Assembly: GCF_026212465.1 (NCBI RefSeq)
Contig: NC_080047.1
Span: forward strand, 40,387,922-40,451,921
Direction of reading: 5' to 3'
Length of the DNA stretch: 64,000 nucleotides
Source: Amaranthus tricolor
Lineage: Eukaryota; Streptophyta; Magnoliopsida; Caryophyllales; Amaranthaceae
Shown: positions 6,311 to 45,130 of the stretch, piece after piece
Layout of the letters: each line of letters begins with the position of its first letter
Position numbering within the stretch: position 1 is the stretch's first letter
Translations under genes and position numbers: made by a program
The notes under the pieces: generated by a model
Seen by the model: the letters and a program-made list of their open reading frames with translations, nothing else
Databases searched by the model: none
Told to the model about the DNA's origin: nothing

Positions 6311-6409
6311 CTAATCAAATAGAAAAATAAATAAATTATAAACTCATAAACTAGTTCAATCTTTCTCCCTCTTTCCCTGTCTCTTCTCTCACTTCAATTT
6401 TTCCCTCAA

Positions 6410-6643
6410 AACCCCTTTCTGTATCTCACAAATCCACCTCTCTGCTGCACTCTCGCGGCTCCCTAACCACCGTCGTCCGCTGGTATGTACTCTTGTCTTG
6501 TCGTTTATTTTAATTTTTTTTTGATTATTGTAGGATTTGTTAAGGTTAAACAATTTTATTACTCTATGTTTCAAGATTTTTGAATTTTGGGGATGTTTGA
6601 TTTTTAAGGTTTTGTTTTGGGAATGTTTTATTTTCCTGTTTAA
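6410..6643 (+). repeat. Leader-like repeat, copy L1
   Basis: A stretch beginning ACCCCTTTCTGTATCTC and containing CTCTCGCGGCTCC, ACCGTCGTCCGC and a splice-donor-like GGTATGTACT followed by T-rich sequence. It recurs with few changes at 19,064-19,298, and its second half recurs at 8,673-8,815. The layout (CT-rich leader, then donor-like site) resembles a 5' UTR exon with the start of its intron. It precedes the hAT coding region here and a kelch ORF in the copy at 19 kb. Confidence 0.75.
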
Positions 6644-7422
6644 ACAAAAGCAAGAACAGAACACTCGAATTCCCTGATTCCCTCTCAATTCCTTCTCTTT
6701 CACTCTAACCCTAAAAACTCTACACAACTTTTCCTCCACCTCCACCGTCGCTGCCGCACTCCCGCACCACGCCACCGCCGGTTGCTCCTCCATCACAGAC
6801 GAACACTCGAACTTGGTGCTGCGTTGCTGCTGCTGCTCCTAAAAATCGAAATTTTTGATTTTGTTTAAGGTATTTTCACTCTTTTATCCTAAATCCTAAT
6901 ATTAATCTTGTTCTAATCTTTAATCTTAGTGTTAATCTTAAATTCTTAATCTTGTTGACTTGTGGGTTGATTGCTGGAGTTGCTGGGTATTTTTAAATCT
7001 TGATTGTGGGTTGCTGGGTTCTTTTTGATTTTCAAATATATTTGATTTCAATTCAATAAGTTACTTGAAGACTTTGAAACTGAACAAAGAGACGCATTCA
7101 ATAAATGATAGTCTTGGATTGTAAATCTGTGCTTTCAAGAAATTATTGACTTTGTTGAACAAACTATTACAGCTCTGTGCATTCAAGAAATGATTCACTA
7201 TATTTGATTTCAATTCAATAAGTTACTTGACTTTGTTGAAAAAATCATGTGGTTTGCTTTGTTCTATCATTCATGAAATCTGATTATGTAGCTAAGAGGT
7301 TGTACCAGCAAGTATTATGCAGCTAGAAATGCACAGCAACTGTTTGTTCATATGCATCTTCATTTTTAGCATTTTTTTTAATGTGTTTGTAATTTGATTT
7401 TTAAATTTTTAATTGTGGTTTT

Positions 7423-8377
7423 TTGAATTTGAAGAGTTCAATCATGTCTAGTAGTGGGGCCAGTGGCTCTGATTCATGCAATATTAGTGGTGATGCTACA
7501 AATGAAGAGGGTGATTTCAATTCTTATCCTTTGTGGAAATATGTTGTTAAAGGGAACAAAATGAGTGGGGGTGGGGGTAATTATACTTGGCAATGCAACT
7601 TTTGCAAACAAATAAAGAGTGGTTCATATACTAGAGTTAAAGCACATTTGATGGGTCTTGCAAAAGGTGGAACTAATCAATGTCCTAATGTAACAAATGA
7701 GGATAGAATGCAAATGAGAAACTTAGAAAGACAAGTTGAGCAATATAAAGAATCCAGACAACCAATAAGACCACCACTTCCTAGTCAATCTTTGTTTTCT
7801 GAAACTTCTCTTTCACCAACTTCATATGGCAAGAATAGAAAATCTGATAACCCAATCACCAAAGCTTTTGATATACAAGCTCGAAACAATTTGGATGCTG
7901 AGATAGCAAGGATGTTTTTTACTGGAGGATTGTCTTTCAACCTTTGTCGAAACCCTTACTATATTAGTTCATACAGCTATGCTGCCACAAATAATATTCC
8001 TGGTTACAATAAAATGAGAACCACTTTGTTAGATAGAGAGAAAGATAATGTTGAAAAGCTTTTAGAACCAACAAAGGCTACTTGGAGGGAAAAAGGGTTA
8101 AGTATAGTGAGTGATGGGTGGAGTGATCCACAAAGGAGACTTTTAATTAACCTCATGGTGGCTTGTGTACATTCATAACAATCTTCGTTTGCTTTCAAGG
8201 ACGGGTGAGGCTTATAACAAGGGAAGAACAAGGTTGTGGGATGTTGGAGGAGATGACTTTGGAAATCTAGAAGATTCTATTTGTCTTGGCATGGCGGATC
8301 TTTCTCTTGATGAGCCCGAGTTGGAAACTACTTTTGTATCGGAGGATGATGATGGGTGTCATATGGATGATGTGTGA
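7423..8377 (+). pseudogene. hAT-family transposase, internally deleted
   Basis: The first ORF (7,423-8,178; an internal ATG at 7,444 starts MSSSGASGSDS) encodes a BED zinc finger at about residues 37-90: WKYVV, then WQCNFCKQ and RVKAHLMG. It then enters the DUF659 segment typical of plant hAT transposases (TTLLDREKDNVEKL, LSIVSDGWSDPQ). It stops after MVACVHS. A second ORF in another frame (8,165-8,377) starts in the overlap with IHNNLRLLSR and runs directly into the extreme C-terminus, ending in an acidic LSLDEPELE-type tail. The central DDE/RNase H region, normally several hundred residues, is missing. The piece is therefore a non-autonomous deletion derivative that might still encode a DNA-binding protein. 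Confidence 0.85.
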
Positions 8378-8573
8378 TGATCAAACTTAAATTTACCTAT
8401 TTATTTGGTTTTCTTTGATTTGGTTTGTATGACTTATTTTAAATACTCATGTTGTTTATTTGGTACTTATTTGCATTTTATGTGATTTTTATGTTTTTAA
8501 AGTGTTTATTTACAAATATCAAATGAAAGATTGTAAAATTATCTTTAATTTGATATATTTATTATATTACCAT

Positions 8574-8665
8574 TTTCGTGTCCCCGTGTTCGCCATTTTT
8601 AAGTTGGCGTTTTCCCGTACCCGTGTCGTGTCCGTGTCCGTGTCCGTGTCCGTGTCCCTTTTAGT
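8574..8665 (+). repeat. GTGTCC hexamer repeat, likely near the hAT terminus
   Basis: GTGTCC is repeated about five times after a GTGTCCCCGTGTTCGCC stretch, about 200 bp downstream of the hAT stop codon. Such hexamers are common near ends of plant hAT elements. I could not find a matching inverted terminus or 8-bp target duplication upstream. Confidence 0.5.
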
Positions 8666-8672
8666 GCAACCT

Positions 8673-8815
8673 TGCTCTTGTCTTGTCGTTTATTTTAATT
8701 TTTTATTGATTATTGTAGGATTTGTTAAGGTTATACAATTTTATTCCTCTATGTTTCAAGATTTTTGAATTTTGGGGATGTTTGATTTTTAAGGTTTTGT
8801 TTTGGGGATGTTTGA
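8673..8815 (+). repeat. Leader-like repeat, copy L2 (partial)
   Basis: Starts CTCTTGTCTTGTCG and follows the second (intron-like) half of copy L1 nearly base for base through GTTTTGTTTTGGG. Copies L1 and L2 therefore bracket the hAT pseudogene as direct repeats. Confidence 0.75.
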
Positions 8816-9066
8816 TTTGATTTTTGCTATTTAGATGGTGATTGCTGTATGAGAGTGCTGTTTGTCCAAAGAACTATTTTGGCATAGTTGTTTAGATGAT
8901 GAATATTATGTTAGTTTGATCTGAATTTAAGTTAATAGTTTGAGACAATGATATTTAACTTTTAAAGATCTTGATTTCATGGTAAGTAATGGTGCACTCT
9001 TAAAGTTGTGCTTGTTCATAATGGACTCCTTATTTCTATTCTATTGACCTGTGTTCTTTTTTAAAA

Positions 9067-9597
9067 AGGTGCTTTTTCCACGTTTCGGTGTCTCTCGAGT
9101 GCTCATTAGTGATAATGGGACCCACTTTATTGAGCACAAATTCGAGGCCCTTCTACGGAAATATGGTGTGCGACAGAGGTATGCTCTTTCCTACCATTCG
9201 CAAACTAGTGGTCGAGGTATCGAATCGTGAACATAAGTCCATACTTGAGAAAACGGTGGACAAGTCTGGAAAGAATTGGTCTGACAAGCCTGATGATGCC
9301 TTATGAGCTTATAGAACAACTTTTAAGACTTGTATCGAGACTACACCGTTTCGTTTGGTCTACGGGAAGCATTGTCACCTTCCCGTAGAGCTTGAGCATC
9401 GTGTTCACTGGGCGATTCGAACCCTCAACTATGATTTGAAAGACGCGGTGAAAGTGAAACATGGCTTCCTGATTTAAATGAGCTTGATGAGATTCGCCTA
9501 GATGCTTACGAGAATGCCAGAGTCTAGAAACAAAAGACAAAAAAATGCCTAGGCGTGAGTTTAGGGTAGGCGAGAAGGTTCTTGTTTACGATTCTTG
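9067..9597 (+). pseudogene. Ty3/gypsy integrase relic, unit 1
   Basis: Translation gives an integrase catalytic core: VLISDNGTHF (first Asp motif region), a KYGV..YHSQTSG stretch, then, after a one-base frameshift, EVSNREHKSILEKTVDKSG with the catalytic Glu region. It continues through a Trp-to-stop change (DAL*AYRTTFKT) to FRLVYGKHCHLPVELEH and DEIRLDAYENAR. These motifs are typical of Athila/Tat-type Ty3/gypsy elements. Several frameshifts and stops show it is dead. No LTRs are attached. Confidence 0.85.
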
Positions 9598-10103
9598 CTA
9601 AAGACTATTTCTTGGCAATTTTTGGAACAAAACTATTTCTTTTTAATTTTAATCTTTCACGTATGGATTCTCCAAGTCTCATACATACCGGTTGAAAAAT
9701 AAACAAGTCCCTTTTACATAGGAGCTCAAATAGCTAGTAAAAAGGATTAATTACCCATTACATCCTTATTCCTAAGATTAAGGAAAATTAAGTAAATCTC
9801 TAATCCTTATTCTTATGATATAAACAATCTCAATGTAGTTCACACATAAGAATTATACAAAATCTCCTCAATGACTTACTACTGCAAAGTGCAAACAACA
9901 TTTTCCTCCTTGGAGATTTGGTTAAATGAGGGACTTGGGATAGTTATAAAATATCCACACATTTGTCAGAAAAACAGTAGACGGCTATAAAATATCTACA
10001 CATTTATCAGAAAAATAATTATGATATAGGAATCAATCAAGCAAACAGGTCCAAAAGTATCATTTTCACTAAATATTAGGATAAATTAGAAAGTACCTGT
10101 TGA

Positions 10104-11674
10104 CTAAGAGTTTAAGAACGTGTTGAACATGCACATCCCACAATATATATTCAGTAGGACTTTACAAAAAATCTCTGATAACACCCATTCGACATGTCGG
10201 AGTTCCAAATAATTTCCTCCCGGGGCGTGACGATAGTGATTAAAGACATTTCTAATAAATCTCAGCATGTCTATCACTTCGGCATCGATATACTTGATAT
10301 AATCGCTAGCGTCTTGGACAGTTGGATATCTCAAAATGTGATCAAACACAGAACCCCGGGATATCTTGGCTTGCCATGATAACAGAACGCCTAAACGAAA
10401 ATGGAATGCAGCTTTGAAACAACTAGTCAACTCCACCTTCATCAAGTCATCATTGACATACCGGTGATAAAGGTTGACATAAAATGCAACCCTTTCCTCC
10501 GCATCTCATAACGCCGGATAATTGCGTAAAACTAACGCTTTCAAACCTTTAGCATTGATTAGGGTAGCTCGTAACATTTTAGGCAACTCTAGCAACTCAG
10601 CATCGGGAGTACCACATTCGATATAAAGTCCTCCATGTCTTGGCTTAATCCAGCTGCACCCTCCTTTGGATTTATCAATTCCACCCAAAATTTAACTTTT
10701 TTGGAACCGACATGGTTTTCAACAAACTGAGAAATCTTATAATTTCTAAAATCATTCAACCCTCCATGAGGCTTATCACCAATTATATGATCAAGAATAC
10801 AATTAACAAGTGCTTGTACAATTGCTAATGATTCTCTTGTTAATTTGTATGCATTCCAAGACCTATAATTGGGCAGATATCTCAATTCTACAGATTTGTG
10901 ATTTTTATACCAAAAAGCTAATGAAAAAACTCCCTCGTAAAAATCAATTTCATCGCCCTTGATAAACTTTGGAAAATCATTTAAAACAGTAAGATTATCA
11001 ATCACATTGGAACCGAAAACGACGGAAAATGGGTTATAAAAACGACATGTAAAGAAATCATCCCCATCCCAAATTACACCCTCCTCACCCACTTCAGCCA
11101 CATCCTCTTCGATCGCCACACCCTCACCCTCCTCAGCCACTTCATCCTCCCTCTCCTCAGCCACTTCATCCTCCCTTTCCTCAGCCACTTCATCCTCACC
11201 CTTTTCTACTTCGTTCCCTTCCCATTCACTTTCATCATCCTCCCATACCTTAGACCAATCCACTAGATATTGTTCGTTTTCGGCCTTATTCTGCGCATAT
11301 AACCATTTCTTATACATGGTTATACGCTGATTTTTTCTCACAACCTCAGTCATCCTCTTTCTATAGGAGGATTGTTTCTCAGCTGAAAAAGTGGAATAAT
11401 AGTAAACATTCTCATCACTAAAATCAACCTTGTCTTTCAAAATTTCATTCAGTGCATTACCCCATTCCCCAACGCTAATTAACAAATATCTGTTCAACCA
11501 TTCATGGGAAGAAGGCTTAACTAAAGGGACAGGAATATTTAATGTATCTAAAGTCTCATCAGAAGGAATTTCACAAGTAAAGTTTGCTATCTCAGCATCA
11601 GATACAGAGTCAATAAGCTTTGTTACCTGAGCCACCTTCTTCTACTTCGCTTTAGACTGCCTGTTTTTACCCAT
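10104..11674 (-). pseudogene. KEN-domain protein, minus copy 1, disabled
   Basis: Same protein family as the plus copy at 12,123-13,367 but with the N-terminus present: ATG at 11,674-11,672, MGKNRQSKAK, then TAG where unit 2 has Lys. The body (start near 11,635) contains an acidic linker with three EDEV-AEER-type repeats and the kinase-like segment up to GLSQDMEDFI. There a 19-nt deletion near 10,628 shifts the frame. A second lesion changes Trp to TGA in NYPAL*DAEERV near 10,508. The KEN part resumes to the same stop codon as the other copies, and reads RNVFNHYR. The lesions are shared with the unit 2 minus copy, so they predate the duplication, except the early TAG, which is unit 1 only. 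Confidence 0.88.
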
Positions 11675-12010
11675 GATTAGTAGTTCGCGACTGAGCAGCG
11701 ATTTTTAATAAAGATCAATGCTGTTGAGGATGAACGATGATGATGATGATGATTGTTGATGGTATTTGGTAAGGCGTGAAGCAGCAAAAAATCGAAGATT
11801 AATTTCTGCTAAATTAAATATCGGTTATGGGATTTGGGTTTTAATTTAGATGAGTGAGATGGGGTGAGAGAAAAGGGGGAATAACGGGTGTGCGGTGGAC
11901 TGTGGGGGTGGTGTCGTTCGGTACCTGACGCACTAACGGTGAGTCGAGTACCGCTGGTGGTGGGAGTTTGTCGAGTGAGAGGTGAAAGGGAGGACAGAGA
12001 AACGGAAATA
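11464..12010. other. Spacer (loop) of the KEN inverted repeat, unit 1
   Basis: Holds the first ~70 codons of the minus KEN gene and, beyond its ATG, about 335 bp of probable promoter and 5' UTR for that strand (CT-rich on the minus strand, a GATGAT run, and a CGGTAC...GTACCG inverted motif near 11,919-11,952). The plus arm has no homologous N-terminus; it simply joins this sequence at 12,011. Any promoter here for the minus gene faces away from the plus copy. Confidence 0.6.
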
Positions 12011-12122
12011 GGGTAATGCACTGAATGAAATTTTGAAAGAAGACAAGGTTGATTTTAGTGATGAGAATGTTTAGTTTTATTCCACTTTTTCAAATGAGAA
12101 ACAATCCTCCTATAGAAAGAGG

Positions 12123-13367
12123 ATGACTGAGGTTGTGAGGAAAAATCAGCGTATAACCATGTATAAGAAATGGTTATATGCGCAGAATAAGGCCGAAAAC
12201 GAACAATATCTAGTGGATTGGCCTAAGGTATGGGAGGATGATGAAAGTGAATGGGAAGGGAACGAAGTAGAAAAGGGTGAGGATGAAGTAGCTGAGGAAA
12301 GGGAGGATGAAGTGGCTGAGGAGGGTGACGGTGTGGCGGTCGAAGAGGATGTGGCCGAAGTGGGTGAGGAGGGTGTAATTTGGGATGGGAATGATTTCTT
12401 TACTCGTCGTTTTTATAACCCATTTTCCGCCTTTTTCGGTTCCAGTGTGATTTATAATCATATTGTTTTAAATGATTTTCCAAAGTTTATCAACGGCGAT
12501 GAAATTGATTTTTACGAGGGAGTTTTTTCATTAGCTTTTTGGTATAAAAATCACAAATCTGTAGAATTGAGATATCTGCCCAATTATAGGTCTTGGAATG
12601 CATACAAATTAACAAGAGAATCATTAGCAATTGTACAAGCACTTGTTAATTGTATTCTTGATCATATAATTGGTGATAAGCCTCATGGAGGGTTGAATGA
12701 TTTTAGAAATTATAAGATTTCTCAGTTTGTTGAAAACCATGTCGGTTCCAAAAAAGTTAAATTTTGGGTGGATTTGATAAATCCAAAGGAGGGTGCAGCT
12801 GGATTAAGCCAAGACATGGAGGACTTTATAGATGTTTTGGACAAGTTATTCGAATGTGGTACTCCCGATGCTGAGTTGCTAGAGTTGCCTAAAATGTTAC
12901 GAGCTACCCTAATTAATGCTAAAGGTTGGGAAGCGTTAGTTTTACGCAATTATCTGGCGTTATGGGATGCGGAGGAAAGGGTTGCATTTTATGTCAACCT
13001 TTATCACCGGTATGTCAATGATGACTTGATGAAGGTGGAGTTGACTAGTTGTTTCAAAGCTGCATTCCATTTTCGTTTAGGCGTTCTGTTATCTTGGCAA
13101 GCCAAGATATCCCGGGGTTCTGTGTTTGATCACATTTTGAGATATCCAATTGTCCAAGACGCTAGCGATTATATCAAGTATATCGATGCCGAAGTGATAG
13201 ACATGCTGAGATTTATTAGAAATGTCTTTCATCACTATCGTCACGCCCCGGGAGGAAATTATTTGGAACTCCGACATGTCGAATGGGTGTTATCAGAGAT
13301 TTTTTGTAAAGTCCTACTGAACATATATTGTGGGATGTGCATGTTCAACACGTTCTTAAACTCTTAG
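12123..13367 (+). CDS. KEN-domain (IRE1/RNase L-like) protein, N-truncated, plus copy 1
   Basis: An intact frame of 414 codons. Residues 37-84 form an acidic linker with EDEVAEE repeats. Residues ~115-280 look like a degenerate protein-kinase C-lobe: HGGLNDFRN at 188-196 where kinases have the catalytic loop, KVKFWVDL where they have the DFG region, and DMEDF at 231-235. Residues 281-390 align with the KEN ribonuclease domain of IRE1 and RNase L: WDAEERVAFY resembles the FW..E.R..F start, and MLRFIRNVFHHYR matches the signature LLR.(I/M)RNKKHHYR. Tyr353, Arg366, Asn367 and His371 sit at the spacing of human IRE1-alpha Tyr892, Arg905, Asn906 and His910, the RNase catalytic residues. No transmembrane segment or ATP-binding loop is visible. 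The start Met is internal: upstream homology (DENV*FYSTFS, 12,059-12,122) contains a TAG, so the ancestral N-terminus of about 100 residues is lost. Function as an RNase is inferred. Confidence 0.72.
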   Translation: MTEVVRKNQRITMYKKWLYAQNKAENEQYLVDWPKVWEDDESEWEGNEVEKGEDEVAEEREDEVAEEGDGVAVEEDVAEVGEEGVIWDGNDFFTRRFYNPFSAFFGSSVIYNHIVLNDFPKFINGDEIDFYEGVFSLAFWYKNHKSVELRYLPNYRSWNAYKLTRESLAIVQALVNCILDHIIGDKPHGGLNDFRNYKISQFVENHVGSKKVKFWVDLINPKEGAAGLSQDMEDFIDVLDKLFECGTPDAELLELPKMLRATLINAKGWEALVLRNYLALWDAEERVAFYVNLYHRYVNDDLMKVELTSCFKAAFHFRLGVLLSWQAKISRGSVFDHILRYPIVQDASDYIKYIDAEVIDMLRFIRNVFHHYRHAPGGNYLELRHVEWVLSEIFCKVLLNIYCGMCMFNTFLNS

Positions 13368-13757
13368 TCAACAGGTACTTTCTAATTTATCCTAATATTT
13401 AGTGAAAATGATACTTTTGGACCTGTTTGCTTGATTGATTCCTATATCATAATTGTTTTTCTGATAAATGTGTAGATATTTTATAGCCATCTACTGTTTT
13501 TTTTATAGCTATCCCAAGTCCCTCATTTAACCAAATCTCCAAGGAGGAAAATGTTGTTTGCACTTTGTCGTAGTAAGTCATTGAGGAGATTTTGTATAAT
13601 GCTTATGTGTGAACTACATTGAGATTGTTTATAAATTGCAGTTGAAGAAGAAATCAGGCAGCTGGTAGCCGAGTCGGGAAAACTTAAAGAGCTTGTGAAG
13701 ATGCATGATAAAAGCTGTTCCATGGTCCATCTCCGTGGTGGCTTTTAAGTTCTATGG
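13368..13757 (+). other. 3' flank of plus KEN copy with apparent intron and exon
   Basis: After the TAG stop, CAACAG|GTACTT and TTATAAATTGCAG|TTGAAG look like intron borders. The following sequence stays in the same frame (EEEIRQLVAESGKLKELVK...) to TAA at 13,747-13,749. The stop sits at the same place in every copy I examined, so this may be 3' UTR, or the remnant of a longer C-terminus. Unit 2 has an extra TAG just after the acceptor. Confidence 0.45.
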
Positions 13758-13999
13758 TGCTATTTAGATGGTGATTGCTGTATGAGAGTGCTGTTTGTCC
13801 AAAGAACTATTTTGGCATAGTTGTTTAAATGATGAATATTATGTTAGTTTGATCTGAATTTAAGTTAATAGTTTGAGACAATGATATTTAACTTTTAAAG
13901 ATCTTGATTTCATGGTAAGTAATGGTGCACTCTTAAAGTTGTGCTTGTTCATAATGGACTCCTTATTTCTATTCTATTGACCTGTGTTCTTTTTTAAAA

Positions 14000-14530
14000 A
14001 GGTGCTTTTTCCACGTTTCGGTGTCTCTCGAGTGCTCATTAGTGATAATGGGACCCACTTTATTGAGCACAAATTCGAGGCCCTTCTACGGAAATATGGT
14101 GTGCGACAGAGGTATGCTCTTTCCTACCATTCGCAAACTAGTGGTCGAGGTATCGAATCGTGAACATAAGTCCATACTTGAGAAAACGGTGGACAAGTCT
14201 GGAAAGAATTGGTCTGACAAGCCTGATGATGCCTTATGAGCTTATAGAACAACTTTTAAGACTTGTATCGAGACTACACCGTTTCGTTTGGTCTACGGGA
14301 AGCATTGTCACCTTCCCGTAGAGCTTGAGCATCGTGTTCACTGGGCGATTCGAACCCTCAACTATGATTTGAAAGACGCGGTGAAAGTGAAACATGGCTT
14401 CCTGATTTAAATGAGCTTGATGAGATTCGCCTAGATGCTTACGAGAATGCCAGAGTCTAGAAACAAAAGACAAAAAAATGCCTAGGCGTGAGTTTAGGGT
14501 AGGCGAGAAGGTTCTTGTTTACGATTCTTG
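14000..14530 (+). pseudogene. Ty3/gypsy integrase relic, unit 2
   Basis: Duplicate of the relic at 9,067-9,597 with the same frameshift and the same Trp-to-stop change, so the decay predates the tandem duplication. Confidence 0.85.
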
Positions 14531-15036
14531 CTAAAGACTATTTCTTGGCAATTTTTGGAACAAAACTATTTCTTTTTAATTTTAATCTTTCACGTATGGA
14601 TTCTCCAAGTCTCATACATACCGGTTGAAAAATAAACAAGTCCCTTTTACATAGGAGCTCAAATAGCTAGTAAAAAGGATTAATTACCCATTACATCCTT
14701 ATTCCTAAGATTAAGGAAAATTAAGTAAATCTCTAATCCTTATTCTTATGATATAAACAATCTCAATGTAGTTCACACATAAGAATTATACAAAATCTCC
14801 TCAATGACTTACTACTGCAAAGTGCAAACAACATTTTCCTCCTTGGAGATTTGGTTAAATGAGGGACTTGGGATAGTTATAAAATATCCACACATTTGTC
14901 AGAAAAACAGTAGACGGCTATAAAATATCTACACATTTATCAGAAAAATAATTATGATATAGGAATCAATCAAGCAAACAGGTCCAAAAGTATCATTTTC
15001 ACTAAATATTAGGATAAATTAGAAAGTACCTGTTGA

Positions 15037-16607
15037 CTAAGAGTTTAAGAACGTGTTGAACATGCACATCCCACAATATATATTCAGTAGGACTTTACAA
15101 AAAATCTCTGATAACACCCATTCGACATGTCGGAGTTCCAAATAATTTCCTCCCGGGGCGTGACGATAGTGATTAAAGACATTTCTAATAAATCTCAGCA
15201 TGTCTATCACTTCGGCATCGATATACTTGATATAATCGCTAGCGTCTTGGACAGTTGGATATCTCAAAATGTGATCAAACACAGAACCCCGGGATATCTT
15301 GGCTTGCCATGATAACAGAACGCCTAAACGAAAATGGAATGCAGCTTTGAAACAACTAGTCAACTCCACCTTCATCAAGTCATCATTGACATACCGGTGA
15401 TAAAGGTTGACATAAAATGCAACCCTTTCCTCCGCATCTCATAACGCCGGATAATTGCGTAAAACTAACGCTTTCAAACCTTTAGCATTGATTAGGGTAG
15501 CTCGTAACATTTTAGGCAACTCTAGCAACTCAGCATCGGGAGTACCACATTCGATATAAAGTCCTCCATGTCTTGGCTTAATCCAGCTGCACCCTCCTTT
15601 GGATTTATCAATTCCACCCAAAATTTAACTTTTTTGGAACCGACATGGTTTTCAACAAACTGAGAAATCTTATAATTTCTAAAATCATTCAACCCTCCAT
15701 GAGGCTTATCACCAATTATATGATCAAGAATACAATTAACAAGTGCTTGTACAATTGCTAATGATTCTCTTGTTAATTTGTATGCATTCCAAGACCTATA
15801 ATTGGGCAGATATCTCAATTCTACAGATTTGTGATTTTTATACCAAAAAGCTAATGAAAAAACTCCCTCGTAAAAATCAATTTCATCGCCCTTGATAAAC
15901 TTTGGAAAATCATTTAAAACAGTAAGATTATCAATCACATTGGAACCGAAAACGACGGAAAATGGGTTATAAAAACGACATGTAAAGAAATCATCCCCAT
16001 CCCAAATTACACCCTCCTCACCCACTTCAGCCACATCCTCTTCGATCGCCACACCCTCACCCTCCTCAGCCACTTCATCCTCCCTCTCCTCAGCCACTTC
16101 ATCCTCCCTCTCTTCAGCCACTTCATCCTCACCCTTTTCTACTTCGTTCCCTTCCCATTCACTTTCATCATCCTCCCATGCCTTAGACCAATCCACTAGA
16201 TATTGTTCGTTTTCGGCCTTATTTTGCGCATATAACCATTTCTTATACATGGTTATACGCTGATTTTTCCTCACAACCTCAGTCATCCTCTTTCTATAGG
16301 AGGATTGTTTCTCAGCTGAAAAAGTGGAATAATAGTAAACATTCTCATCACTAAAATCAACCTTGTCTTTCAAAATTTCATTCAGTGCATTACCCCATTC
16401 CCCAACGCTAATTAACAAATATCTGTTCAACCATTCATGGGAAGAAGGCTTAACTAAAGGGACAGGAATATTTAATGTATCTAAAGTCTCATCAGAAGGA
16501 ATTTCACAAGTAAAGTTTGCTATCTCAGCATCAGATACAGAGTCAATAAGCTTTGTTACATGAGCCACCTTCTTCTTCTTCGCTTTAGACTGCCTGTTTT
16601 TACCCAT
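15037..16607 (-). pseudogene. KEN-domain protein, minus copy 2, disabled
   Basis: This copy has the best-preserved N-terminus in the window: ATG at 16,607-16,605, then MGKNRQSKAKKKKVAHVTKL, a lysine-rich start that could act as a nuclear signal (inference). It reads through without a stop for 361 codons: an N-terminal segment of about 100 residues, the acidic EDEVAEE repeats (three), and the kinase-like region. It then hits the same 19-nt deletion near 15,561 found in minus copy 1, which sends it into a short false tail. The KEN part (15,037-15,378) is therefore out of frame, and the same Trp-to-TGA lesion lies at about 15,441. As annotated it could make only a KEN-less protein. Confidence 0.88.
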
Positions 16608-17055
16608 GATTAGTAGTTCGCGACTGAGCAGCGATTTTTAATAAAGATCAATGCTGTTGAGGATGAACGATGATGATGATGATGATTGTTGATGGTATTT
16701 GGTAAGGCGTGAAGCAGCAAAAAATCGAAGATTAATTTCTGCTAAATTAAATATCGGTTATGGGATTTGGGTTTTAATTTAGATGAGTGAGATGGGGTGA
16801 GAGAAAAGGGGGAATAACGGGTGTGCGGTGGACTGTGGGGGTGGTGTCGTTCGGTACCTGACGCACTAACGGTGAGTCGAGTACCGCTGGTGGTGGGAGT
16901 TTGTCGAGTGAGAGGTGAAAGGGAGGACAGAGAAACGGAAATAGGGTAATGCACTGAATGAAATTTTGAAAGAAGACAAGGTTGATTTTAGTGATGAGAA
17001 TGTTTAGTTTTATTCCACTTTTTCAAATGAGAAACAATCCTCCTATAGAAAGAGG

Positions 17056-18300
17056 ATGACTGAGGTTGTGAGGAAAAATCAGCGTATAACCATGTATAAG
17101 AAATGGTTATATGCGCAGAATAAGGCCGAAAACGAACAATATCTAGTGGATTGGTCTAAGGTATGGGAGGATGATGAAAGTGAATGGGAAGGGAACGAAG
17201 TAGAAAAGGGTGAGGATGAAGTGGCTGAGGAAAGGGAGGATGAAGTGGCTGAGGAGGGTGACGGTGTGGCGGTCGAAGAGGATGTGGCCGAAGTGGGTGA
17301 GGAGGGTGTAATTTGGGATGGGAATGATTTCTTTACTCGTCGTTTTTATAACCCATTTTCCGCCTTTTTCGGTTCCAGTGTGATTTATAATCATATTGTT
17401 TTAAATGATTTTCCAAAGTTTATCAACGGCGATGAAATTGATTTTTACGAGGGAGTTTTTTCATTAGCTTTTTGGTATAAAAATCACAAATCTGTAGAAT
17501 TGAGATATCTGCCCAATTATAGGTCTTGGAATGCATACAAATTAACAAGAGAATCATTAGCAATTGTACAAGCACTTGTTAATTGTATTCTTGATCATAT
17601 AATTGGTGATAAGCCTCATGGAGGGTTGAATGATTTTAGAAATTATAAGATTTCTCAGTTTGTTGAAAACCATGTCGGTTCCAAAAAAGTTAAATTTTGG
17701 GTGGATTTGATAAATCCAAAGGAGGGTGCAGCTGGATTAAGCCAAGACATGGAGGACTTTATAGATGTTTTGGACAAGTTATTCGAATGTGGTACTCCCG
17801 ATGCTGAGTTGCTAGAGTTGCCTAAAATGTTACGAGCTACCCTAATTAATGCTAAAGGTTGGGAAGCGTTAGTTTTACGCAATTATCTGGCGTTATGGGA
17901 TGCGGAGGAAAGGGTTGCATTTTATGTCAACCTTTATCACCGGTATGTCAATGATGACTTGATGAAGGTGGAGTTGACTAGTTGTTTCAAAGCTGCATTC
18001 CATTTTCGTTTAGGCGTTCTGTTATCTTGGCAAGCCAAGATATCCCGGGGTTCTGTGTTTGATCACATTTTGAGATATCCAATTGTCCAAGACGCTAGCG
18101 ATTATATCAAGTATATCGATGCCGAAGTGATAGACATGCTGAGATTTATTAGAAATGTCTTTCATCACTATCGTCACGCCCCGGGAGGAAATTATTTGGA
18201 ACTCCGACATGTCGAATGGGTGTTATCAGAGATTTTTTGTAAAGTCCTACTGAACATATATTGTGGGATGTGCATGTTCAACACGTTCTTAAACTCTTAG
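17056..18300 (+). CDS. KEN-domain (IRE1/RNase L-like) protein, N-truncated, plus copy 2
   Basis: Also 414 codons and almost identical to the frame at 12,123-13,367. The one amino-acid change I noticed is Ser for Pro at residue 34. All four residues matching the IRE1 catalytic set (Tyr353, Arg366, Asn367, His371) are kept. The same upstream TAG (16,995-16,997 region) blocks the ancestral N-terminus. Two separately inherited open frames with intact catalytic positions are compatible with retained function, but the duplication is so recent that openness alone is weak evidence. No obvious promoter of its own was found, because the plus arm begins inside the gene. Confidence 0.72.
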   Translation: MTEVVRKNQRITMYKKWLYAQNKAENEQYLVDWSKVWEDDESEWEGNEVEKGEDEVAEEREDEVAEEGDGVAVEEDVAEVGEEGVIWDGNDFFTRRFYNPFSAFFGSSVIYNHIVLNDFPKFINGDEIDFYEGVFSLAFWYKNHKSVELRYLPNYRSWNAYKLTRESLAIVQALVNCILDHIIGDKPHGGLNDFRNYKISQFVENHVGSKKVKFWVDLINPKEGAAGLSQDMEDFIDVLDKLFECGTPDAELLELPKMLRATLINAKGWEALVLRNYLALWDAEERVAFYVNLYHRYVNDDLMKVELTSCFKAAFHFRLGVLLSWQAKISRGSVFDHILRYPIVQDASDYIKYIDAEVIDMLRFIRNVFHHYRHAPGGNYLELRHVEWVLSEIFCKVLLNIYCGMCMFNTFLNS

Positions 18301-18690
18301 TCAACAGGTACTTTCTAATTTATCCTAATATTTAGTGAAAATGATACTTTTGGACCTGTTTGCTTGATTGATTCCTATATCATAATTGTTTTTCTGATAA
18401 ATGTGTAGATATTTTATAGCCATCTACTGTTTTTTTTATAGCTATCCCAAGTCCCTCATTTAACCAAATCTCCAAGGAGGAAAATGTTGTTTGCACTTTG
18501 TCGTAGTAAGTCATTGAGGAGATTTTGTATAATGCTTATGTGTGAACTACATTGAGATTGTTTATAAATTGCAGTTGTAGAAGAAATCAGGCAGCTGGTA
18601 GCCGAGTCGGGAAAACTTAAAGAGCTTGTGAAGATGCATGATAAAAGCTGTTCCATGGTCCATCTCCGTGGTGGCTTTTAAGTTCTATGG

Positions 18691-19013
18691 TGCTATTTAG
18701 ATGGTGATTGCTGTATGAGAGTCCTGTTTGTCCAAAGAACTATTTTGGCATAGTTGTTTAGATGATGAATATTATGTTAGTTTGATCTGAATTTAAGTTA
18801 ATAGTTTGAGACAATGATATTTAACTTTTAAAGATCTTGATTTCATGGTAAGTAATGGTGCACTCTTAAAGTTGTGCTTGTTCATAATGGACTCCTTATT
18901 TCTATTCTATTGACCTGTGTTCTTTTTTAAAAAGGTGCTTTTTCCACGTATCGGTGTCTCCCGAGTGCTCATTAGTGATAATGGGACTCACTTTATTGAG
19001 CACAAATTCGAGG
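18691..19013. repeat. Partial third copy of the 4,933-bp unit
   Basis: Matches the first 323 bp of the unit, into the integrase relic, and breaks off after CACAAATTCGAGG. The next bases (GTGTCCATTACA...) match the kelch ORF at 19,806 instead. Confidence 0.9.
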
Positions 19014-19063
19014 GTGTCCATTACATATACAAGGTTGAAGATACAAGACGACAACGTAAGGTT
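19014..19063 (+). repeat. Scrap of kelch sequence at the junction
   Basis: Reads GVHYIYKVEDTRRQRKV, nearly the same as GVHYTVEYTRRQRKV in the kelch ORF (19,806-19,850). It lies between the truncated integrase and leader repeat L3. Confidence 0.8.
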
Positions 19064-19298
19064 AAACCCCCTTTCTGTATCTCTCAAATCCACCTCTCTG
19101 CTACACTCTCGCGGCTCCACTAACCACCGTCGTCCGCGGTATGTACTCTTGTCTTGTCGTTTATTTTTTTTATATATTATTGTAGGATTTGTTAAGGTTA
19201 AACAATTTTATTACTCTATGTTTCAAGATCTTTGAATTTTGGGGATGTTTGATTTTTAAGGTTTTGTTTTGGGAATTTTTATTTTTCCTGTTTAAATT
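19064..19298 (+). repeat. Leader-like repeat, copy L3
   Basis: Near-copy of 6,410-6,643, including the donor-like GGTATGTACT. Just downstream (19,300-19,400) a run of GGGTTTACATTTT-type repeats follows, then the kelch ORF. Confidence 0.8.
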
Positions 19299-19568
19299 TC
19301 GGAGATTTTTGATTTTTTGGGTTTACATTTTTAAGATTTTTTGTGTTTAGGGTTTACATTTTGAGAATTTTTGATTTTTAGGGTTTATAACTTTAAATTT
19401 AAATATATAGTTTAGCTGAATCCAATTCACTTTTTATTTGAGATAAAGAAAAGAAAATTATGAGATTATTGAATCAAATATTCCTAAAATTACGAGATAA
19501 TTGAATATGAAATTAGATCTCTTTGATTCAATTAAATCTGCCTCAGGGACTGGTTTACGTTTAGGGAC

Positions 19569-20315
19569 ATGGAGCAGCAGGCGCCGACAATTTACTTGCT
19601 GGTGGACCATGCGTTACCAGAGGTGGCACATGCACTATACAAGATTGAACTGCCACTTGATTTATCACACTACGACCAGATGATAGATTCTGACGGCTTC
19701 ATGACTGATTCTAAAAACATTTCTCCTGTCGTAACCTTCAAAGAGCCAGGCCTTATGCCTGCCTGCGCCTCGGTCACTCTTGGCTCCAAAATCTACTATT
19801 TTGGAGGTGTCCATTACACGGTTGAATATACAAGACGGCAACGTAAGGTTCAGTTTTTCGATACTCAACACCCAGAACTAGGAGTGCACACTGTGTCACC
19901 CTTGAATGTTCCCAAGTTGCTTCCTTGCGTGTTTGTTGCTGATGGCATGATCTATGCCCTTGGTGCTTATCTAGCTCCGATTTCGGCTGAGAGGACGCCC
20001 CTTCCCGGTTGTAAGGGTACTGGTTATTTCGAACATTACAATCCTACTTTGGACCAGTGGCAAGTCCTGTCTGACCCTCCGCTTCCAAATTCTGTGTGGG
20101 CAAATGCTTTTTTTTCAGAACGTGCCACCGTGGTAGGTCGTCGGGTTTTCATAGGTGGTCCATATCTCTATGTCGTCTTCAACTTGGATGACCAGGATTG
20201 GGAACAGCTTCCGCCTCCACAACTGGCTCGTAGATTCTATTGTGCCTCCTTCTTTGTGCAGGACTCTGCTTCCCTTTACCACCTTCATCATAGGAAACCT
20301 GTGCTATATGGCTGA
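19569..20315 (+). pseudogene. Kelch-repeat protein fragment, fused to SPT6 sequence
   Basis: A frame starting MEQQAPTIYLLVDHALPEVA encodes about three kelch blades: ACASVTLGSKIYYFGG...VQFFD, PCVFVADGMIYALGA...FEHYNPTLDQWQVL, and ATVVGRRVFIGG...VFNLDDQDWEQLP. Kelch propellers usually have five to seven blades and mediate protein contacts. Here the kelch homology ends near CASFFVQ (about 20,265); the last 17 codons are not kelch-like and overlap in another frame the first recognisable SPT6 codons. The frame is open but truncated, so I call it a gene fragment. A promoter is not evident apart from leader repeat L3. Confidence 0.7.
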
Positions 20316-24673: not shown

Positions 24674-27600
24674 ATGGCTAACGAAAGCGACTATGAGTCG
24701 GATGCGGTACGTAAAATTGCCGTTCGAAGGAAAAAAAAAAAAAAAAAAAAAAAAGTCGCACAAATCTGGGCGACTGAATCATGGTTTAGTCGCCCAGTTT
24801 TGTGCGACTGGTCCATGGGTCAGTCGCCCAGATCTGTGCGACTGCTATTTTCTTTTTTTTTTTTTTAAATTTACGTATTAATGTATTTTTAAATTATTTT
24901 TATAATTATTGTTAGTATTATTATTGTTGTTGTCATTATTTTAATTTTTATTGTTGATATTTTTATTTTTTAAATTTTTTAATATTTTAATTTACGTAAT
25001 TTATTTATTTATTATTGTTATAATTATTATTATTATTGTTGTATTTGTTGTTATTATTATTATTATTATTGTTATAACTATTATTTATTTATTTATTTAT
25101 TATTGTTATAATTATTTATTTATTTATTATTGTTATAACTATTATTATTATTGTTATTATTTTTCTTGTCATTATTTATTTATTTTAAATGTTTTTAAAT
25201 TTTTTTTGTTAACGTAATGTTTTTATTATTATTAAAATTATTATTATTATTATTATTGTTGTTGTTGTTGTTATTATTAATCCAAATATTATTATTATAG
25301 TCATTAATGTACTTAATTTATATCATTTCAAATGTGCAGGAGTTTGAAAATTTTGGAGACAACGTAGACTACTCCGGTCGCTTTGTTACGGATAGGGAAT
25401 TTATCTCCATAGATGAGTTACATAGTTGGGCCGATGCAATAGCAATTACAATCGGTTTTCTATTTACACGTGCTTCTTATAAAAAGAAAGAAGGACGTTC
25501 CAGAGTTAGTTGTTATTTAAGATGTCACCGCTATGGTAAACTTAGGGGTGATGTAGATAATGTAGATAATGCTGCCCGACCTGGTTCTAAAAGTAGGAGT
25601 TGTGGGTGTAAATTTATGATTGTAGGAAGTAGTCGTAAACCAGGAGAAAGACCTTGGACGGTAAGGGTGTGTCCTGGTGTAAAGGGAAAACATAACCACC
25701 CGTTCTTGGTGTACAGAGATGGTCATGTAAGGGCGAGGATTAATGTAGATATTCGGGAGCACATACGACAGCTTAGTGCAACCGGAATGCAACCGGCCTT
25801 TATTATGAATTCTATTAGAGATAATTTTCCTGGTTTTTATGCTAGTATGAATCAGATATATAATATTAGCCAATCAATAAGGAGAGATGAAATGGAGGGC
25901 AGGACTCCCCTTCAACACTGTCTTCATATGGCCACAGAACATAATTATGTGGTCTGGACAGAGTTGGATAATGACGGGCACTTGAGCAGACTTTTAATTG
26001 CAAATCCTACTTCAATCCAAATGATACGTACGTGGCCGTATGTTGTGCTGATAGATACAACGTACAAAACGAACAAATCAAAGTGGCCACTATGTGAAGT
26101 CATCGGAATGACGCCAACAAATCACAACTTCTTGGTTGCGTTTTGTTTGATGCGAGATGAGGCGGCTGTGTCGTACTCGTGGGTGCTGCAGGGATTGAGA
26201 GATATTTTCGGCAGTGCTCAGACTCCTAGCGTCATTGTAACCGATCGTGACGAAGGTTTATCTGCAGCTATTCGTGACGTCTTCCCAGGTAAAAACGCTT
26301 TGTGAGTTCATTATTGTGGTTATATCTATTGATAATGTCTTAATTACGTTCACTGTTTTGTTTAATGTAGATGTACGTCATTTGTTATGCACCTGGCATA
26401 TTGGCAACGATGTTGAGAACATGGTGGACAAGTTGTGCGGCGGCAAGAAAAATCAACAAGGGCAGATATTTAGGAAAAGTAGATGGAACCCCTTGGTTGA
26501 AAGTGCTACAATCCGGGAATATGAAAAGAGATGGGAAGGGATCGTCAGTACGTGGTCGGTTAGGAACCGAAGGGTCGTTCGGTATTTGACTGGAACATGG
26601 ATTCCACTTAGAGAGAAATTTGTGCGTGCGTGGACGAATGATTGTTTACACTTGGGTAACCATACTACCAGCAGAGTGGAAAGCCAACACTCGTCTTTTA
26701 AGTATTACCTTGGTAGCGGTAATAGCTCATTCGATACCCTTTTCAAAAGGGCGCACGCACAGATTACAAATCAACAAGCTAAAATCCGACAATCGCTACA
26801 GGAATCCATGACTTCTGTACCAAGAACGCTACGACAGTATTTCTTTAGACCTCTATATCGCCACGTGTCTCTCTATGCCTTGGAGCAGATCCAGAATGAG
26901 TTCAACCGCATGTTAGAACTGGGTGATTTTGCATTGAACAAATGCGGTTGTGTACTTCTAAAAACCCATGGATTGCCGTGTGCATGTTATTTACAAATAA
27001 AAATTGGATCACATGGTGCTTTGTACTTGGATGACATTCATGAATTCTGGAGTACTTTGTGGTACACAGAGGTAGGAGACGAACCCAATGAAGAAGTACG
27101 AAACGCGAACGCCAATGACAAAGAGTACTTTCAATCTCTGGTCGATGAAGTCCTTAAATCTGATCCCGCTTTTGTTCGCCGAATGGCTGAGGTACTTGAA
27201 TATGAATTACACCCAGATGGTGCGGATATACCTGAGCCTTACGCTAGTCCACCGAGAAAGGGAAGACCAAGCACTAGTAAAACCATGAGAAGGAGAAAAA
27301 GTTCATTTGAATATAGCCGATCATCTTCTCGTGGTCGAGGGTCTAGATCTTCTTCCCGCGGGAGATCAAGTGGCAGATCTAGTGGCCGAGAGACGCAATC
27401 TTCAGTAGGAATTAAGTTCAGTTTCAACTTATCCGGTAATTGAATTAATTTTTAGTTTTTTTCATTAATTATTTGTTATTGTGGTTATATTAACTTGATT
27501 TACATTTATTGTAGATGATCCAGGAGGTCGTGATTTCTCACAGTTTCCATGGCCTGATTACATCCCATTCATGCTTCCTCCTTATTTATTCGACTGGATT

Positions 27601-28191
27601 GATGTGTTAGGTGATGGTAACTGTGGATTTAGAGCAATTGCTGTCACAGAGCTGGGAGGCGAGGAAGCATGGCCTATTTTAAGACGTGCTATGAGTATGG
27701 AAATGCAAATGAACAGAGCGCAATACCTAACTTTGTATCTATCTCATGAGTCACTAGACGAGTCAATATTCAGAGTAGGTTCACACACCGATGGACCTGC
27801 TCCTTTCATGCACTGGTTCGATGCACCGATGGCTTTCTACTCTGCAGCAACGTTTCTTAACATTACCATTGCTTTTTATGGTTCTTCTAACGGTGATTCA
27901 TTAAACAACTGTTTGATTCTTCCTTTAAGAAAATCACAGGCCGCGAGAAGTGTAAATAAACTAATACATATACTTTGGGTTAATCGAAATCATTTTGTTC
28001 AACTTTTTATGAACGACGATTCATCCCCTCTGCCGCCGATCCACCCACGTTGGAAACAAGCAGCTGACAATTTCGCGAAAGATCTTGACACAAATTTCAC
28101 TACGAGGATTATGCAGTGGAATAATCTACGCGGGGCACCCCCACCAACAAATAACACCGCTGACGATGCTGTAAATTTAGATACTCCATAG
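24674..28191 (+). CDS. MULE transposase fused to an OTU cysteine protease (4 exons)
   Basis: Exons 24,674-24,706, 25,340-26,288, 26,371-27,435 and 27,515-28,191, all with GT/AG borders and consistent phase, give 2,724 nt or 907 residues. An N-terminal FAR1/WRKY-like zinc region (Cys/His at about 69-131) binds DNA in relatives. The DDE transposase core has VVLIDTTYKTN (Asp250), VIVTDRDEG (Asp313) and RVESQHSS (Glu431). A SWIM-like finger follows (CGC at 519-521, PCAC at 530-533, the last position Cys not His). Then comes a Ser/Arg-rich stretch at 635-670. Residues ~700-850 form an OTU domain: GDGNCGFRA with Asp716 and Cys719, and WVNRNHFVQL with His842. OTU enzymes cleave ubiquitin-type linkages; some plant MULEs are known to carry one. 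No stop or frameshift interrupts the model, which suggests a young copy. Exon 1 is short and is the least certain part. Confidence 0.85.
24755..24844. repeat. MULE left palindromic array
   Basis: GTCGCACAAATCTGGGCGAC, TAGTCGCCCAGTTTTGTGCG and AGTCGCCCAGATCTGTGCGA alternate in opposite orientations, so the segment can form nested hairpins. It lies in intron 1 of the transposase between an A run and a T run. Confidence 0.8.
24880..25300. repeat. TTA/TTTA microsatellite-like tract
   Basis: Long low-complexity run of ATT, TTTA and GTT units within intron 1 of the MULE gene. The open frame seen across it is a composition artefact. Confidence 0.85.
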
Positions 28192-28974: not shown

Positions 28975-29345
28975 TTTTACGGTTTCATTCAATATTATAA
29001 ATAATAATATTTCTAAATACATAATAATCATAAATAAAATATGGAAAAAAATAACAAAAAACAAACAAAAAATTATTAACATTTAATTAAAAAAAATATA
29101 TACAAAACATAAACATATATTTAATAATAAATAAAAATAACAATAACAATAATAATAATAAAATTAATAATAACAACATTAACATATATTTAATAATACA
29201 AAATTAACAATCACAATAATAATAATAATAATAATAATATTAATAATAATAACATTAATATATATTTAATATTAACAAAAATAACAATAATAATTAAATT
29301 AATAATAATAAAATTAATAAAATACATACGGAAAAAATAAAAAAA
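28975..29345. repeat. AAT-rich low-complexity tract
   Basis: Runs of AATAAT and ATATTTAAT, the minus-strand counterpart in composition of the TTA tract near the left end of the element. Confidence 0.8.
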
Positions 29346-29362
29346 AATAAAAAAAATTAAGG

Positions 29363-29488
29363 GAGTCGCCCAGATCTGGGCGGCTCGACCCCGGTTCAGT
29401 CGCCTAAAATTAGGCGACTGAACCGGGGTCCAGTCGCCTAAAATTAGGCGACTGAACCGGGGTCCAGTCGCCCAGATCTGGGCGACTC
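29363..29488. repeat. MULE right palindromic array 1
   Basis: Built from GTCGCCCAGATCTGGGCG-type and CAGTCGCCTAAAATTAGGCG-type palindromes joined by ACTGAACCGGGGTC linkers. The TAAAATTA palindrome is repeated twice in perfect form. Confidence 0.88.
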
Positions 29489-29614
29489 CATTAATTTTTT
29501 TTTTTTTCGTGATTAAATTTAAATATAAGGAAAAAATTAAAAAACAAAAATTTTTATATATACAAAACATAAACATTTATTTAATAATAAATAAAAAAAA
29601 AATAATAATAATAG

Positions 29615-29707
29615 GAGTCGCCCAAATCTGGGCGGCTCGACCCCGGTTCAGTCGCCTAAAATTAGGCGACTGAACCGGGGTCCAGTCGCCCAGATCTGGG
29701 CGACTCC
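29615..29707. repeat. MULE right palindromic array 2
   Basis: A shorter version of array 1 (one TAAAATTA palindrome between two GCCCARATCTGGGC palindromes), about 125 bp closer to the right end. Confidence 0.88.
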
Positions 29708-29880
29708 TATAATATTTTTTTTTTTTCCGTGATTAAATTTAATTACAAATAACTTACCTCGATTGATAAATTCCGGATTGAACTTAATTTTTGCTCCCAA
29801 ATTTTGCTTTTGTATGTTGGTTTTTAGTTGTAGTGAAAGTATTTTTAGTGTGATTGTGGTTTATATAGAAAATTTTAGCT

Positions 29881-40204: not shown

Positions 40205-40600
40205 GTAATTAGAATTTGGTGATATAAGGGATTTGGGATAACTATAAAATATCCATACATTTGTCATAGCTATAAAATATATTCACATTTGTCAGAATAT
40301 AAGAATCAATCAAACAAACAGGTTCAAAAAAATCACTCAGACTAAATATTAGGATAAATTAAAAAGTAGTTGTCGATTAAGAGTTTAAGAACGTGTGGAA
40401 AATGCACATCCCACCATATATGTTCAGGAAGAAAATTCACTAAATATCTCGGATAACTTCAATTCAACTTGTCAGAGTTCTAAATAATATCCTCCCGAGG
40501 CCAAATATCAGCATGTTTACCTTATTGGCATCGCTATACTTGATAGAATCGCTAATGTTTTAGACAGTTGAATATCTCAAAATGTAATATTTTCTGACAA
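40205..40600 (-). pseudogene. KEN gene relic, 3' part only
   Basis: Diverged match to the 3' flank and last ~60 codons of the KEN family: complement of TTAAGAACGTGTGG...CACATCCCACCATATATGTTCAG and of TCAGAGTTCTAAATAATATCCTCC. An internal deletion removes the region around the RN..HHY motif. It is older than the copies at 9.8-18.6 kb, judging by substitutions and indels. Confidence 0.75.
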
Positions 40601-43769: not shown

Positions 43770-45130
43770 ATCAAAATCTCCTCAATGACTTACTACTGCA
43801 AAGTGCAAACAACATTTTCCTCCTTGGAGATTTGGTTAAATGAGAAACTTGGGATAGCTATAAAATATCCACAAATTTGTCAGAAAAACAGTGGATGGCT
43901 ATAAAATATCTACACATTTATCAGAAAAACAATTGTGATATAGGAATCAATCAAGCAAACAGGTACAAAAGTATCATTTTCACTAAATATTAGGATAAAT
44001 TATAAAGTACTTGTCGACTAAGAGTTTACAAACGTGTTGAACATGCACATTCTACAATATATGTTCAGTAGGATTTCACAAAATATCTCTGACAACACCC
44101 ATTCGACATGTCAGAGTTCCAAATAATTTCCTCCCGAGGCGTGACGATAGTGATGAAAGACATTTCTAATAAATTTCAGCATTTCTATTGCTTTGGCATC
44201 GATATACTTGATAGAATCGCTAGCGTCTTGGACAGTTGGATATCTCAAAATGTGATCAAACACAGAACCCCGGGATATCTTGGCTTGCCAAGATAACGGA
44301 ACGCCTAAATGAAAATGGAATGCAGCTTTGAAACAACTAGTTAACTCTGCCTTCATCAAGTCATCATTGACATACCGGTTATAAAGGTTGACATAAAATG
44401 CAACCCTTTCCTCCGCATCCCATAACGCCGGATGATTGCGTAAAACTAACGCCACCCAACCTTTAGCATTGATTAGGGTAGATCGTAACATTTTAGGCAA
44501 CTCTAGCAACTCAGCATCGAGAGTACCACCCTCGAATAACTTGTCTAAAACATTTATAAAATCCTCCATGTCTTGGCTTAATCCAACTGCACCTTGGATT
44601 TATCAATTCCACCTAAAATTTAACTTTTTTGGAACCGACATGGTTTTCAACGAACTGAGAATTCTTATAATTTCTAAAATCATTCAATCCTCCATGAGGC
44701 TTATCACTAATTATATGATCAAGAATACAATTAACAAGTGCTTATACAATTGCTAATGATTCTCTTGTTAATTTGTATGCATTCCAAGACCTATAATTGG
44801 GCAGATATCTCAGTTCTACAGATTTGTGATTTTTATACCCAAAAGCTAATGAAAAAACTCCCTTGTAAAAATCACTTTCATCGCTGTTGATAAACTTTGG
44901 AAAATCATTCAAAACAGTAAGATTATCAATCACATTGGAACCAAAAACGGCGGAAAATGGGTTATAAAAACAACAAGTAAAGAAATCATCCCCATCCCAA
45001 ATTACACCCTCCTAGCCCACTTCAGCCACATCCTCTTCGACCGTTACACCCTCACCCTCTTCAACTGCCACACCCTCACCCTCCTCAGCCACTTCATCCT
45101 CCCCCTCCGCCACTTCATCCTCCCCCTCCT
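43770..45130 (-). pseudogene. KEN gene relic, nearly full length but disabled
   Basis: Third KEN locus, minus strand, more diverged than the tandem copies. The 3' flank (43,770-44,030) and KEN domain (44,111-44,569) are colinear with the others. It keeps the fuller form LRNHPALWDAEERVAFY, closer to the HP.FW start of IRE1 KEN domains, and MLKFIRNVFHHYR with Arg, Asn and His in place. The Tyr 13 residues before the RN pair is also kept (IKYIDAKAIEM). Lesions: a stop directly after NYLEL, a deletion near 44,597 that shifts the frame before MEDFI, a stop in the acidic linker (near 45,013), and loss of the N-terminus beyond about 45,130. It shows the ancestral domain arrangement. Confidence 0.85.

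Follow-up and report, generated by a model that had tools for sequence, protein, structure and literature searches.

Inverted repeats of genes or pseudogenes have been described in soybean, rice and Arabidopsis. An array of KEN-domain ribonuclease (RNase) pseudogenes in Amaranthus tricolor belongs with the known inverted pseudogene pairs, as a potential hairpin source that is long and apparently recently doubled. The array occupies positions 8825..19013 of a 64,000-nucleotide stretch of contig NC_080047.1 (the window, G000:C1:40387922-40451921; coordinates below count from its first letter) in a genome of 519,850,330 bases and 45 contigs. The array is likely to be a decaying cluster of one lineage-restricted KEN-domain family, in which inverted pseudogene pairs arose via inversion and later unequal exchange, and from which a hairpin would act mainly on the locus itself and not on live RNases.

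GmIRCHS, at the soybean I allele, is an inverted repeat of pseudoCHS3 that is able to make double-stranded RNA (dsRNA), and the dsRNA was detected (PMC13051633); copy number at the I locus changes via non-allelic recombination (PMC6710647). The amaranth locus is similar in having inverted pseudogene copies of about 1-1.6 kb at a rearrangement-prone site (PMC13051633, PMC6710647). In contrast to the pairs within the amaranth units, which are head-to-head, GmIRCHS is tail-to-tail with a 78-bp spacer, and it has the GmJ1 promoter region and live CHS targets (PMC13051633); here no target appeared in the searches. Like the inverted paralogous pseudogene pairs of rice (Guo et al., 2009, PMC2708354), the amaranth copies are adjacent opposite-strand pseudogenes with a stem >100 bp and a loop <2 kb, the limits applied in that study. 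The rice pairs have stems of 155-185 nt and mapped small RNAs (PMC2708354), whereas the present stems measure about 1.6 kb. Arabidopsis Ws PAI1-PAI4 is also a gene-sized inverted repeat, and it is tail-to-tail, as is the pair formed here by the right arm of unit 1 and the left arm of unit 2 (R1/L2). PAI differs in that it has homologues at unlinked sites which acquire methylation (PMC3431836); the searches here did not find any homologue of this kind. Among known loci, PAI1-PAI4 and GmIRCHS come closest to the R1/L2 geometry. The KEN domain has expanded apart from the kinase in several monocots, e.g., rice (PMC3710099). The family described here likewise has KEN without a recognised kinase but, unlike the monocot expansions, is a eudicot family of Amaranthaceae with one named relative (quinoa LOC110735184) and is degenerate at this locus.

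Anatomy of the array

The first-pass annotation had reported a 4,933-bp unit present twice in full, followed by a 323-bp third piece, and this arrangement was recovered exactly: the units lie head-to-tail at a spacing of exactly 4,933, and a gap-free comparison of the two, each extended by the next 323 bp, shows 16 differences in 5,256 positions. The third piece (A3) differs from the start of unit 1 (A1, 8825-9147) at 4/323 positions and from that of unit 2 (A2, 13758-14080) at 5/323. The proposed recent tandem duplication holds in the assembly. Two opposed copies of one KEN-domain gene per unit, with arms of about 1.6 kb, were also confirmed by BLAST. The arms share 93.7-94.0% identity over 1,673 columns including 65 gaps; the match is not due to chance because its E-value is 0. 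In the stretch used for arm comparison, coding positions are identical at 990/1011 and intron positions at 252/258. The left and right copies stand head-to-head around a spacer that measures 534 bp by BLAST ends, against the 547 bp given earlier. The features of the array are:

8825..13757, no strand: tandem unit 1, 4,933 bp
13758..18690, no strand: tandem unit 2, 4,933 bp, with 11 differences from unit 1 across 4,933 positions
18691..19013, no strand: partial third copy, segment A3, 323 bp
9819..11469, minus strand: left arm of unit 1 (L1), KEN pseudogene with a 19-nt deletion near 10621, a Trp-to-stop change in the KEN part and the candidate last exon missing
11470..12003, no strand: spacer of unit 1, containing the start of the left copy (ATG at 11674 and the first N-terminal codons) together with 326 bp of its 5' flank
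12004..13633, plus strand: right arm of unit 1 (R1), 5'-truncated copy
12075..13367, plus strand: open frame of R1, 430 codons between stops, with a PF06479 match that exceeds the cut-off and a family-frame TAG just upstream
13641..13742, plus strand: candidate last exon, judged by eye, with 3' splice site gcag, beside right copies only
14752..16402, minus strand: left arm of unit 2 (L2), deletion and KEN stop as in L1
15522-16637, minus strand: L2 N-terminal open reading frame, open from the ATG at 16607
16403..16936, no strand: spacer of unit 2
16937..18566, plus strand: right arm of unit 2 (R2), open frame 17008-18300
9057..9547, plus strand: fragment of a retroelement integrase (rve; E 2.6e-5; 24.8 bits, under the cut-off of 32.6), repeated in unit 2 at 13990-14480
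9612..9805, no strand: dispersed repeat fragment that adjoins the 3' end of the left arm, with its unit 2 counterpart at 14545-14738 and copies elsewhere 82-88% identical

The integrase fragment has many relatives at 70-75% across the genome. The 323-bp repeat was considered as the long terminal repeat of an element; this was rejected because A ends within the integrase fragment and starts beside the right copy's 3' region. Rfam gave 0 matches in 8000-20000.

Identity of the family and state of its copies

The 430-codon right-arm frame matches PF06479 (E 2.4e-6, 28.1 bits, profile positions 33-80 of 127) above the curated cut-off of 23.3 bits, which upholds the naming of a KEN-domain gene. The left KEN fragment scores 27.8 bits; relic C3, a further copy listed below, reaches 18.8 and the quinoa protein P0001 15.5, both below the cut-off. 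Compared by hhalign with the genome's own IRE1-like KEN, the family profile aligns over 85 columns at 34% identity (E 2.2e-4), with a probability of only 45% on very thin profiles; the alignment covers IRE1-like residues 148-238 of 289, leaving out the C-terminal part. Judged by these scores, the KEN match is real but modest. Searches covering 5.8 billion proteins returned one named relative, P0001 (Chenopodium quinoa LOC110735184, 73% identity over 91% of the query), and a 112-residue fragment (P0002) that by eye equals the end of the left-arm frame. Taken together, these results indicate that the KEN label is right but that the family is remote from IRE1. The kinase that precedes KEN in IRE1-type proteins was not detected: Pfam found none in P0001 or R2 at E <= 10, and hhalign aligned the KEN part alone. 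A degenerate kinase upstream of KEN, an idea formed by eye, is thus unsupported by both. Matches of the KEN region to DUF547 stayed below the cut-off, NCBIfam matched 0 families, the PDB profile search gave one chance-level match (E 2.3) and the PDB single-sequence search two IRE1 sequences (E 0.66-0.70). The AlphaFold2 model was too poor to use (predicted local distance difference test, pLDDT, 34), and no literature was found on LOC110735184 or on "Ribonuclease 2-5A" with Amaranthus. The best reading of these matches is a lineage-restricted KEN family with one other named protein, that of quinoa. Past the KEN core, P0001 ends in another frame than the arms, as if frameshifted (by eye, from the protein only).

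All four copies are damaged or truncated and none is complete. Aligned to P0001, the left copies cover residues 1 to 350, then lose 19 nt and carry a stop replacing W394; L1 has an additional TAG near the N-terminus at 11644, in the spacer and outside the arm. The right copies align from residue 79, lack the family start codon, carry a TAG at residue 99 and are open thereafter. The head-to-head pair therefore consists of a 3'-truncated L, broken in its KEN part, and a 5'-truncated R. A frameshift at the right copy's C-terminus was entertained and dropped because the open frame reads "VLLNIY", which by eye resembles a KEN end. Two further copies of the family lie in the window:

43772..45127, minus strand: fifth KEN copy, relic C3, 92% identical to the arms, 5'-truncated, with several stops and a frameshift
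40214..40588, minus strand: sixth KEN copy, relic C4, 375 bp, 73%, broken

Between L2 and R2, nonsynonymous divergence (dN) is 0.022 and synonymous divergence (dS) 0.025 (400 codons, one stop codon left out). With relic C3 as outgroup, the R lineage accumulated 3 synonymous and 11 nonsynonymous changes and the L lineage 3 synonymous, 5 nonsynonymous and 1 stop; 5 changes were unpolarised. These proportions show no departure from neutral site numbers (R, p = 1.0; 7/28 synonymous overall, p = 0.48). The arms have thus diverged neutrally since the inversion, without detectable protein constraint. Divergence between the arms is equal in coding (2.1%) and intron (2.3%) sequence, whereas towards C3 it is about 6% in coding and 9% in intron sequence. 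This suggests that constraint acted before the inversion and not after it. The dN/dS towards C3 (dS about 0.22, ratio 0.47-0.48) was computed but set aside, as the alignment with C3 includes non-homologous sequence in its 5' part.

Fold-back capacity and the search for targets

The predicted fold of the head-to-head pair (3,815 nt) has an energy of -2,982 kcal/mol and joins the arms by 1,581 pairs, the longest unbroken run being 278; five control stretches of the window of the same length give -810 to -969 kcal/mol. The tandem duplication sets R1 and L2 tail-to-tail around a loop of 1,118 bp, and the predicted fold of this second pair (4,399 nt) has -3,133 kcal/mol and 1,580 pairs. The predicted fold-back capacity is very strong, a property that is necessary yet insufficient for silencing. 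Within each unit, the left copy's recognisable 5' flank lies in the loop and faces outward; the TATTTAA found 143 bases from the end of this 326-bp flank is at most a weak hint of transcription. If the locus is transcribed, the likeliest hairpin would be the tail-to-tail R1/L2: with its 5' flank retained but both the candidate last exon and the 3' untranslated region lost, L2 could plausibly be read through into antisense R1. Any small interfering RNAs (siRNAs) would then act on the locus itself, and perhaps on relic C3, rather than on a live RNase family.

The first-pass annotation had proposed silencing of relatives in trans, with IRE1-like or KEN-only RNases as the target family. A whole-genome DNA search with the unit as query, in which 39 of 292 candidates were scored, gave 43 matches: 4 KEN rows, two each for C3 and C4, and 39 that fall on the unit's integrase or dispersed-repeat sections. 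Of the 5 matches given by a genome search with PF06479, one lies at C13, two are exons at C8 (IRE1-like) and the remaining two are the right arms. Neither search found an intact member of the family, and both relics are broken and lie in the window. C3 shares 410 of the 2,541 arm 21-mers and C4 shares 1. No 19-, 21- or 24-mer is common to the arms and the 3.1-3.4-kb stretches around the IRE1-like KEN exons (L001-L003), where the longest common run is 12 bases. With damaged copies, no shared 19-mer and only broken relics, a trans-regulated RNase family was not found, and neither the proposed silencing nor its target family is supported as stated. The locus has the long near-identical inverted repeat of a gene that is typical of inverted-repeat silencing loci; a search beyond the repeat for an intact homologue that could serve as target, by DNA, PF06479 and k-mers, found none, and on that ground the locus is not placed among natural silencing loci.

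Origin of the array and alternative readings

The L-R pair differs at 27/1,269 positions, A1-A3 at 4/323 and the units at 11/4,933 (Fisher tests: L-R vs units, p = 2e-11; A vs units, p = 0.011). This order of divergence makes the L-R pair the oldest, the A1-A3 repeat the next and the units the youngest. An inverted duplication would have created the L-R pair. A unit flanked by the 323-bp direct repeats (A-B-A) may then have undergone unequal exchange between A copies, the simplest account of A-B-A-B-A, with fold-back-capable pseudogene DNA as the result. Nine of the 11 unit differences cluster in 11177-12290, 1.1 kb around the hairpin centre (p = 5e-5, for a stretch picked post hoc); possible causes are sequencing error, local mutability and conversion from another haplotype. 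A separate repeat flanks the array on both sides (6408-6644, 8675-8818 and 19064-19296; copies 88-97% identical). Its third copy lies upstream of a kelch-repeat gene at 19536 and follows a weak short kelch-like match at 19007-19066 (E 0.048).

A trans-silencing locus, in which hairpin RNA from the arms yields siRNAs that repress expressed KEN RNases, could draw on the very strong fold-back, in which perfect runs reach 278 nt, and on inverted pseudogene repeats that act so elsewhere (GmIRCHS, PAI, Muk). It appears unlikely, given that neither genome search returned an intact family member, that the IRE1-like stretches lack any 19-mer in common with the arms, and that the left copy's 5' flank sits inside the loop and points outward. 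A variant, more improbable still, is a "ghost" locus whose siRNAs would repress a KEN RNase that is intact and possibly harmful, missing from the reference but segregating in other haplotypes or interfertile relatives. The right copies might instead be functional and encode a KEN protein with a shortened N-terminus, the inverted layout being incidental: both units keep 430-codon frames whose KEN core passes the Pfam cut-off, and the frame reaches a methionine after about 17 residues. The equality of dN and dS between the arms, the R-lineage counts (11 nonsynonymous vs 3 synonymous), the absent family start codon, the TAG upstream of the frame and the lack of a recognised promoter of their own render this improbable.

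There is also little probability that the tandem duplication is an assembly artefact, with a single A-B-A unit assembled twice, e.g., from two haplotypes. The few unit differences and their haplotype-like clustering would fit, and 323-bp repeats could mislead an assembler; yet unit and array are short enough for long reads to span, and the inverted pair inside a unit is independent of the tandem duplication. The reading as a decaying cluster with a hairpin acting on the locus itself has several points against it. A distant intact paralogue could have escaped the DNA search, although one missed in this way is probably too diverged for efficient siRNA targeting. One AATAAA lies between the R1/L2 partners on each strand (about 14631 on plus, about 14064 on minus) and speaks against read-through, although one per stretch is about chance level, by estimate, in such AT-rich DNA. 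No methylation-decay signature was found in the arms, which gives no support for silencing even in cis: of the 12 C>T/G>A changes that were polarised, 1 falls in CG, and the observed/expected (o/e) CpG ratio is 0.69-0.74 in the arms vs 0.65 in the window. The right-arm frames, open for 430 codons with the KEN core kept, make a truncated protein possible, and the A-B-A step depends on 4 differences in 323.

Other parts of the window contain mobile-element sequences. The frame at 7405-8178 carries DUF659, is presumably hAT-like and has a CpG o/e of 0.08, unlike the KEN arms. A Mutator-like transposase frame (MULE, PF10551) and further frames, the last OTU-like by eye with no Pfam match, occupy 25301-28191; repeats at 24731-25333 and 29000-29748 provide inverted and direct copies on either side of this region. 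Copia-type retroelement frames (gag, Pol_BBD, gag_pre-integrs, SH3_retrovirus) lie at 61607-63462.

If the "ghost" locus were real, crosses would reveal silencing, much as for PAI-type epialleles or for the hairpin suppressors of drive genes that are reportedly known from Drosophila. On the favoured reading of a decaying cluster, the locus shows one way in which a long inverted repeat can form from a gene and then be doubled, so that a tail-to-tail fold-back geometry is added to the first. The locus also brings to light a family of KEN RNases that is little known, restricted to its lineage and decaying here. If siRNAs from the arms exist, the locus would test whether hairpin pseudogenes stay processed after the loss of their target.

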